Assembly: GCF_000798815.1 (NCBI RefSeq)
Contig: NZ_JTLD01000014.1
Location: 124,001-188,000 of the forward strand
Direction of reading: 5' to 3'
DNA: 64,000 nucleotides
Source: Alistipes sp. ZOR0009
GTDB lineage: Bacteria > Bacteroidota > Bacteroidia > Bacteroidales > ZOR0009
Position numbers and translations under genes: made by a program. Positions 9,931 through 39,298 of the stretch are shown here, in pieces; position 1 is the stretch's first letter, and the number at the start of each line of letters is the position of its first letter. The notes beneath the pieces are model-generated. The model saw only the letters and a list, made by a program, of their open reading frames with translations. It had not been told where the DNA came from and did not search any database.

Positions 9931-10190
9931 GATGGCTCAAACGGGAAATCTTTTAGTCGTATTTTACGGTCGGACGAGCTAATGGATGCCGGTATTGATA
10001 GCCGACGTTGCGCAGAAGAGCTACTATCGGTCAGTTGGGATAACCGACGTTGTTCGGAAGAGCATAGCTAAGCTGGTGTTGGTATCATACGTTGGTTGGA
10101 AGAGCAAGTTGGCCTATAAAATGGTAACCCAAGCCCTTCGGAAGAGCTTGGGTGTATCAAAAATGGTAGCATTAAGCTGTTGTTAGTAAG
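9931..10190. repeat. Degenerate tandem array with an exact 42-bp period (GAAGAGC repeats)
   Basis: The heptamer GAAGAGC (first copy GACGAGC) starts at 9973, 10015, 10057, 10099 and 10141, four successive intervals of exactly 42 bases. The ten or so bases before it are also related (CCGACGTTG, CCGACGTTGTTCG, TACGTTGGTTG, CCCTTCG). A weaker unit may precede at 9931. One plus-strand frame (9986-10186, 66 codons) stays open across the array and encodes a 14-residue repeat with an invariant Lys-Ser, but it has no recognisable family. The last junction forms a strong hairpin at 10127-10153. Function unknown; it could be a decayed coding repeat or a regulatory array. Confidence 0.65.
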
Positions 10191-37226: not shown

Positions 37227-37686
37227 TTTATGGCACCGGATTTTGGCTCGCTGCAAAGGGGAATGTGCTACTCGAATAGCTTCGCATACCAAAAGGCAGT
37301 TAATTTATTCTTTTGATGCGGCTGTTTACAGCTTTTTGTTCTGCCTGCCTGCTTTTATAATGCCTACAGCAATAGTGGTTTATGAGGAACCTTTGGGCAT
37401 AATATGTTTAATAAAATTTCACAAAACAAAAATTACCATCTTTTAAATTCTTGGGTTTTTATATCAGTAAGTAGGCCAACTATCAGGATTGCAAGGGCAC
37501 ATTTGGCTGCCGCAACGCTTAAATGCAGCAAACTTTTGTAGGCTAGAAGTGGTAGGAGTGAGGCTTTATCCGCTACCTACCCATAGCCGAGGTGTCGGAG
37601 ATGGTTTTGTTACCCAGCAAAGAACGGTTGGCAGGCAAAAGCATCCAAGCATAGGCGTTCAAAGTTCTTTCGTACTACTTGTATTG
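37227..37686. other. Gap before the hairpin array
   Basis: No supported gene, repeat or RNA. The short plus-strand frames here have no family features and no plausible start context. Confidence 0.4.
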
Positions 37687-38084
37687 GGGTTTGCAACGAT
37701 GCAAGTAGGCAAAAGAGGGGCGGTAGCACCATTTGCAACGTTGCAAATGGGTAAATGGATGGCCAACGGGCCATTTGCAACGGTTCAAATGGATAAACTC
37801 TGACAAAATATCCGTTTGCAACAATGCAAATAGGTAAAATGGAGGCAAAAGCACGATTTGCAACGTTGCAAATCGAAAAACGGAGGCGGTTGCGCCATTT
37901 GCAACGTTGCAAATGGGTAAATAGGTAGCCAACGGGCTATTTGCAACAGAGTAAATGGCCAATTCATGACAAAATGTCTACTTGCAACGGTGTAGGTAGG
38001 TAAAAAGAAGGAGCAAGGTACTCTTGCAACGCTGCTTAAGGGTAAAAGTGATGTAGTAGGTCTGATTTGCATCTCATATTGAGG
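37687..38084 (+). repeat. Array of about nine RNA-like hairpins, 41-42 bp period
   Basis: Each unit has an 8-nt arm, a 6-nt loop of form AACRNT and an 8-nt arm. Unit starts are 37687, 37729, 37771, 37812, 37854, 37895, 37937, 37978 and 38020, plus a decayed tenth near 38063. Arms covary: CCATTTGC/GCAAATGG at 37729 and 37895, CGATTTGC/GCAAATCG at 37854, CTATTTGC/GTAAATGG at 37937, CTACTTGC/GTAGGTAG at 37978. Seven imperfect pairs are G-U on the plus strand and only one would be G-U on the minus strand, so a plus-strand RNA is favoured. Linkers of about 20 nt share GGTAAA-like sequence. The alternating period rules out a coding repeat. Confidence 0.75.
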
Positions 38085-38551: not shown

Positions 38552-39298
38552 ATGAATAAATTCCAGTCGTTTTTACGTAAATGCTTGCTAAACTCCCTGG
38601 TGGGTTTTAATAAGGACCTTAGAGGCATCCTTAAAGCAGCAAATCTTCCCGAGCTGGAAGCATCTAACGCATACAAGAGGTATCTGGATGTTTCCATGTT
38701 ACTAGACGAAGGGCACATGCAGGCCCGTAAGAATCCGTTTACTGTGAAGTTGGGCGCCAATGTTCGCGCACGCAGTAAATCGTACCATGCTATAAATTTT
38801 GCCATTAAAAGCAATCTTAACTCTAATATTGATGCTGAACGAAATGCGGCTACCCTGCTTAATATGCTATTTTTGAGGTATAGCCCCGAGTTCTCCAGAA
38901 CGTCGTACAGCGGTGCAACAGGTATGATAGCCAGCTTTATTCAGGAGCTAAAGCAGAAGCAGAATGTGGATGCGATAGCTGTTCTGAAGTTGGAAAACAA
39001 GGTTCAGCAGCTCCTCGACGACGATGCCAGCTGCGAGGCTAGCTACCTTCAGTGTATTGCTAAGAATATGGAGCAGGACGAGCACGTATCGGCCTCCAGC
39101 ATTCGTAACAACTTTATTACAGCAGCTCGTAACGTTATCACCTTTATAGAGACGCAGGCTAGCGAGGACAAAAGCGGTAAGTGGGTCGAGCTGAATGGTA
39201 AGGTAGCTATTCATAATGCTAAGTTCGAAAGGGCAGAGGCTGTTCGTCAGGCTAACCTTAAGAAAAAACGTGAGGAAAAGAAAAAGCGATCTATGTGA
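38552..39298 (+). CDS. Uncharacterised helical protein, possibly DUF6261-like
   Basis: A 248-residue soluble protein with no signal peptide and no membrane segment. It is predicted almost wholly helical, with RARSKSYHAINFAIKSNLNS, ERNAATLLNMLFLRY and GMIASFIQELKQ in the middle and a very basic tail (NLKKKREEKKKRSM). This pattern resembles the Bacteroidota family DUF6261, whose function is unknown; the match is by eye only. It is a single gene with its own terminator, and the nearest upstream feature is the hairpin array ending 470 bases before it. A nucleic-acid contact through the basic tail is conceivable but unproven. Confidence 0.65.
   Translation: MNKFQSFLRKCLLNSLVGFNKDLRGILKAANLPELEASNAYKRYLDVSMLLDEGHMQARKNPFTVKLGANVRARSKSYHAINFAIKSNLNSNIDAERNAATLLNMLFLRYSPEFSRTSYSGATGMIASFIQELKQKQNVDAIAVLKLENKVQQLLDDDASCEASYLQCIAKNMEQDEHVSASSIRNNFITAARNVITFIETQASEDKSGKWVELNGKVAIHNAKFERAEAVRQANLKKKREEKKKRSM

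Follow-up and report, generated by a model that had tools for sequence, protein, structure and literature searches.

The DUF6261-associated array

Does a tandem array of short palindromes, repeated every four turns of the DNA helix in a non-coding region, act as a folded RNA, or are its units sites on duplex DNA? The question is raised by a locus in the window (the whole stretch of 64,000 nt that was analysed), for which the original prediction favoured a selected plus-strand RNA or single-stranded DNA structure and dismissed a duplex protein site. The features concerned are as follows.

37687–38041, plus strand: array of nine palindromic units, 41–42 bp apart (repeat search, Tandem Repeats Finder and pairing count); the 22-nt dyads start at 37687, 37729, 37771, 37812, 37854, 37895, 37937, 37978 and 38020
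38552–39298, plus strand: DUF6261 (PF19775) gene, 248 aa, owner of the array (open reading frame; Pfam profile score 63.3 bits, cut-off 27)

The nine units, first described as recurring every 41–42 bases, were recovered both by a repeat search, which placed nine 24-nt copies at 37690–38046 with start spacings of 42, 42, 41, 42, 41, 42, 41 and 42, and by Tandem Repeats Finder, which at score 50 reports no further array in the window. Folding each unit as an 8-bp stem closed by a 6-nt loop gives 72 pairs, of which 57 are Watson–Crick, seven G.T, two A.C and six other combinations; the last unit (38020) pairs weakly (4/8 Watson–Crick). The compensatory stem flanks CC/GG, CG/CG and CTAC/GTAG are all present. 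The seven wobble pairs counted previously on the plus strand hold, with two rather than one on the opposite strand, and the loop, which was said not to be kept palindromic, fits that description in six of the nine units, the other three having the self-complementary loop AACGTT.

Four possible second dyads lie inside the units; over the eight spacers such dyads do not exceed shuffled sequences (82 of 300 shuffles reach the same level), and each entry below carries that caveat.

37760–37773, no strand assigned: possible second dyad, TGGCC-AACG-GGCCA
37885–37896, no strand assigned: possible second dyad, GGCG-GTTG-CGCC
37926–37939, no strand assigned: possible second dyad, TAGCC-AACG-GGCTA, a double change relative to the copy at 37760
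37968–37978, no strand assigned: possible second dyad, GACA-AAA-TGTC

Open reading frames of 95–104 aa cross the array on both strands (37489–38072) and will probably be annotated, spuriously, as hypothetical proteins. A coding repeat was rejected, since the alternation of 41 and 42 bp breaks the frame; the reading frames through the array are by-products. Nor do the arrays show the conserved repeats and unique, uniform-length spacers of CRISPR: in most of them the repeat takes in the entire unit of roughly 42 bp. A scan of the window against Rfam 15 gave no match at the gathering score, in keeping with the earlier statement that no described RNA class has this form. The core motif of the window array occurs as an array at one place only in its own genome (G000), which holds no solo copy of it. 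The window also has a second, weaker array of the same period, flanked by an ABC-type ATPase region and an aminotransferase-like open reading frame.

9951–10186, no strand assigned: second array with a 42-bp period; the adjacent open reading frames lack DUF6261, and no kinship of its motif to the main array was established

The main array ends about 500 bp 5′ of the DUF6261 gene; neighbouring open reading frames at the locus encode GH92, PD40 and methyltransferase proteins. PF19775 is a Pfam family with no assigned function. In G002, one of two congeneric genomes (the other being G001), a DUF6261 gene whose product is 61% identical to the window protein is immediately preceded by a diverged form of the array (TTTGCAC CGTTGCAAA).

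Arrays accompany DUF6261 genes across several orders

Among 60 relatives, eight encode DUF6261, as do six of a sample of 296 genomes from the phylum, both counts including the window genome; copies number 18 in G000, 33 in G001 and 38 in G002. For each of the 89 copies in the three genomes, 900 bp of upstream sequence was searched, an array being defined as at least three identical 8-mer pairs 36–48 bp apart. Arrays were present upstream of 78 of the 89 genes (13/18 in G000, 30/33 in G001 and 35/38 in G002) and downstream of six, compared with 48 of 440 random 900-bp windows taken from twenty 20-kb stretches scattered over G002 and free of its listed DUF6261 hits. Outside the genus, 22 of 24 DUF6261 hits had loci, and 17 of these carry an upstream array and none a downstream one. 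In the Chryseobacterium group (65 named loci from Chryseobacterium, Epilithonimonas, Kaistella and relatives, less L209, dropped for its short upstream region), the corresponding figures are 50/64 and 5/64. It had been proposed to check whether copies always lie near the same gene type; they do, and the gene is DUF6261.

Some contigs of the draft genome start inside or just beside arrays (loci L051, L059 and L063, and contigs C59 and C21 of G000). Arrays thus appear to break assembly, and may be undercounted in G000. With several G000 array loci at contig ends, and spurious reading frames as in the window, arrays may be both a cause of broken assemblies and a source of mis-annotation.

One period, many motifs

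The motifs vary between DUF6261 loci and the period hardly does. The modal repeat distance, tested over a range of 12–75 bp, is 40–43 bp in 76 of 79 regions. In a separate search confined to spacings of 40–43 bp, 82 arrays with 573 units gave 23 spacings of 40 bp, 146 of 41, 298 of 42 and 24 of 43 (mean 41.66, standard deviation 0.65, n = 491), equal to 4 × 10.41 bp, or four helical turns. A recurrence every 41–42 bp puts all the sites on one face of the helix.

The best dyad of each array is paired at a median of 0.60, against 0.47 in column permutations, and 47 of 80 arrays are more palindromic than all 20 of their permutations (33 are not). The commonest arrangement, seen in 35 of 80 arrays, has a second dyad 20–21 bp from the first. 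In arrays L094 and L130, and in a solo array (L151), the box GGTTCCGATT is nearly constant and the palindrome has changed on both arms. An intergenic region of G002 (L145:8705-9230) carries a near-perfect tandem repeat of 22 bp, or half a 44-bp unit.

Strong palindromes also occur at the orthologous loci L091 (G002) and L127 (G001), where a Y1 transposase gene stands some 3 kb from each DUF6261 gene. These palindromes may be REP elements and not DUF6261 arrays, and the pair was dropped as an example of complete array turnover.

Pairing symmetry and promoter geometry

Across the family, compensated double changes number 129, against 85.3 ± 7.4 in shuffles, which indicates that the symmetry of the arrays is maintained. 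Covariation thus persists when more arrays are aligned, with the qualification that pair-breaking double changes likewise outnumber those in shuffles (92 against 62.4 ± 6.7), probably due to some units being generally divergent. The core of the original prediction, a selected, covarying and palindromic non-coding array with a four-turn period, is borne out; the plus-strand RNA reading of it is not. RNA hairpins would favour G.U pairs, and the sense strand of an RNA class should show them in excess over A.C. Over 90 dyads in the genus arrays, read in gene sense, there are 257 G.T and 273 A.C deviations, with 35 dyads leaning to G.T and 41 to A.C; the window array alone leans to G.T.

The position of the promoter points the same way. 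The motif TAnnTTTG, which we take to be the −7 element of Bacteroidota promoters, was sought at 51 arrayed loci of the Chryseobacterium group, and lies between array and start codon at 35, only inside the array at three, only upstream of it at none, and is missing from 13. Where this −7 box stands between array and start codon (35/51), the array is outside the mRNA made from that promoter. The box stands at a median distance of 19 bp beyond the array and 54 bp from the ATG, which brings the last repeat up to the −33 region in this group. In the genus of the window the promoter position is less clear: TTG-N18-22-TAnnTTT lies between array and gene at 11 of 82 loci and upstream of the array at 4 of 82, and at the window locus no TAnnTTTG box was found between array and gene. 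A partition centromere or an autoregulatory operator array should consist of phased repeats that lie beside the gene of the putative binding protein and reach its promoter, and this is what was found, the promoter overlap coming from the Chryseobacterium group only.

The DUF6261 protein

A Chryseobacterium homologue matches the DUF6261 profile with 76.2 bits. No DNA-binding domain was recognised in DUF6261 by Pfam, PHROGs, PADLOC or PDB sequence searches, ribbon-helix-helix and HTH domains included, and the PDB gave no convincing sequence relative. PADLOC gave no convincing match to a defence system either, its sole defence match being a weak one between one homologue and ZorA. AlphaFold2 models the Chryseobacterium homologue as nine helices (pLDDT 84, pTM 0.56); the window protein, which has a basic tail, is poorly modelled from a thin alignment (pLDDT 62). 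The protein is predicted from these models to be all-helical. A Foldseek search with the model gave no match at E ≤ 0.001, and VIA-align scores, with Z up to 9.4 for four-helix bundles, are within the chance range for helical models and indicate generic helical bundles only. Divergent members share few invariant polar residues. A phage or plasmid origin was rejected: phage and plasmid collections gave no DNA match at distant sensitivity, and viral_contigs gave no relatives for alignments A3 and A4.

Solo arrays and a second array-bearing family

Most arrays of the 42-bp type in G002 have no adjoining DUF6261 gene. For three of its linked arrays (L084, L079 and L102), two solo copies apiece lie elsewhere in that genome, and 400 kb of G002 without DUF6261 contain 29 arrays. 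Five of these match G002 linked arrays with scores exceeding the highest null value (25), and three more match only a G001 linked array, with scores of 31–52 that have no null of their own. Two others are arrays of a second gene family, family X, and one matches a family X array, leaving 18 that match neither gene-linked family; arrays may have owners besides these two. The 29 solo arrays lie between convergent genes in 11 cases, divergent genes in seven and co-directional genes in 11. Three G001/G002 pairs (L074/L111, L083/L123 and L070/L110) have similar genes and arrays in dissimilar flanks, which suggests that gene and array move as one.

Family X was recognised from two homologous genes (32%) flanking arrays in the control stretches.

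L155:3322-3792 and L144:15119-15622: family X genes, about 160 aa, multi-copy; further loci are L237–L251 and L270–L279

The family has no Pfam match, and is present in seven copies in G002, five in G001 and three in G000. An array accompanies 13 of these 15 genes, mostly 3′ of the gene, and is palindromic with a spacing of 41–44 bp. Outside the genus, arrays were found downstream of 7 of 10 copies and upstream of one. Arrays of such build are thus not unique to DUF6261.

Proposed function and alternatives

Judged on sequence, the window array is probably a tract of duplex-DNA sites for the product of the adjacent DUF6261 gene, binding itself being inferred. Palindromic sites every 41–42 bp, often with a second dyad half a unit (20–21 bp) away, would present themselves on one face of the helix, where the DUF6261 protein would bind its own array as an oligomer aligned along the DNA. 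In the Chryseobacterium group the last repeat, lying over the −33 region, would allow the protein to set the expression of its own gene. Gene and array would be copied, diverge and sometimes move as one unit, giving each paralogue a private motif, and at solo copies the protein could act on, or gather, those places. An extension of this idea has an outside chance: a chromosomal address code, in which each DUF6261 or family X paralogue would read its private array at the gene and at a few intergenic sites, and bridging would hold places together or mark domain borders. Several observations count against duplex-DNA sites for the DUF6261 protein: the protein lacks a recognised DNA-binding domain and the window protein is poorly modelled; most 42-bp arrays of G002 adjoin no DUF6261 gene, and 18 of 29 fit neither gene-linked family; the frequent convergent setting of solo arrays (11/29) is not what simple promoter operators would lead one to expect; spacings of up to 44 bp in family X loosen the strict helical argument; 33 of 80 arrays have no dyad signal above permutations; and the window array is some 500 bp from its gene with no box in between.

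If the units were transcribed into a chain of hairpins serving as a leader, decoy or sponge RNA, the excess of compensated changes (129 against 85.3) and the 7 to 2 ratio of G.T to A.C in the window array would follow, and some loci of the genus do have AT-rich, promoter-like stretches upstream of the array that could place it in a leader. Free RNA hairpins have no reason to follow the helical repeat of B-DNA, however, and the equality of G.T and A.C over 90 dyads, the array position 5′ of the Chryseobacterium-group promoter, the mostly 3′ arrays of family X and the lack of an Rfam match in the window make a structured RNA very unlikely. Strand equivalence suits instead a cruciform or single-stranded DNA, in which a protein, or a repair or replication step, would read extruded hairpins whose stems drift with pairing kept; the constant box GGTTCCGATT beside palindromes changed on both arms (L094, L130 and the L151 solo array) also agrees with this. 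We regard it as quite unlikely, as extruded hairpins need no helical phasing of their centres, pairing is imperfect in many units, and template switching that perfects palindromes gives the same covariation without selection.

Selfish or satellite-like repeats of the REPIN/RAYT style, spread or amplified by the product of the adjacent gene, would account for the layout of gene, private palindromic repeat and dispersed solo copies, including the three linked arrays with two solo copies each and the joint changes of place of gene and array. Such spread leaves unexplained one period shared by unrelated motifs. DUF6261 has no Y1/HUH transposase domain, its divergent members keep few invariant polar residues, the copy number per motif is tiny (three), and G000 has arrays at 13 of 18 DUF6261 genes with no Y1_Tnp match at all, so that selfish spread appears unlikely. 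Duplex-DNA sites for the DUF6261 protein, the possibility set aside at the outset, are now the favoured reading.

Comparison with known systems

RAYTs are described as Y1 transposases (PMC3116915, PMC3733652), and the REPIN/RAYT systems resemble the present one in that a family of palindromic repeats lies beside the gene it belongs to, with dispersed intergenic copies and several families per genome. Unlike them, DUF6261 has no Y1 domain and G000 no Y1_Tnp match (G001 has three and G002 seven, two of which are the genes about 3 kb from L127 and L091). The DUF6261 repeats are phased direct tandem arrays at 40–43 bp and not inverted doublets, amount to three copies of a motif in each of three cases counted and, by eye, share no common tag such as the GTAG or CGTC of REPINs. 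In the titles and abstract openings of open-licence literature on DUF6261, on REPIN/RAYT in Bacteroidetes, on palindromic or tandem repeats in Bacteroidetes, Chryseobacterium, Bacteroidales and Flavobacteriia, and on intergenic tandem repeats, such a system is not described; DUF6261 is named there once, in a variant table.

The other comparison is with partition centromeres and iterons. In ParR/parC, TubR/tubC and iteron systems, a helically phased array lies upstream of the promoter of its binding protein, which assembles along the array and represses itself. By analogy, DUF6261 arrays are helically phased and stand upstream of the gene for their putative binding protein. Unlike ParR/parC and TubR/tubC they are chromosomal, with 18–38 paralogues per genome and unrelated motifs, and no ParM, TubZ or ParA gene is found among the open reading frames beside the window array. 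Neither REPIN/RAYT nor any Rfam family fits, and the DUF6261 arrays are filed under neither REPIN/RAYT nor partition centromeres. A Pfam family without a function gains a strong and testable partner, its own DNA array, in a system that spans several Bacteroidota orders with dozens of copies per genome, private motifs and one shared spacing. Whether they serve autoregulation, chromosome organisation or selfish spread, the DUF6261 loci form a natural set of many presumably orthogonal protein–DNA pairs.
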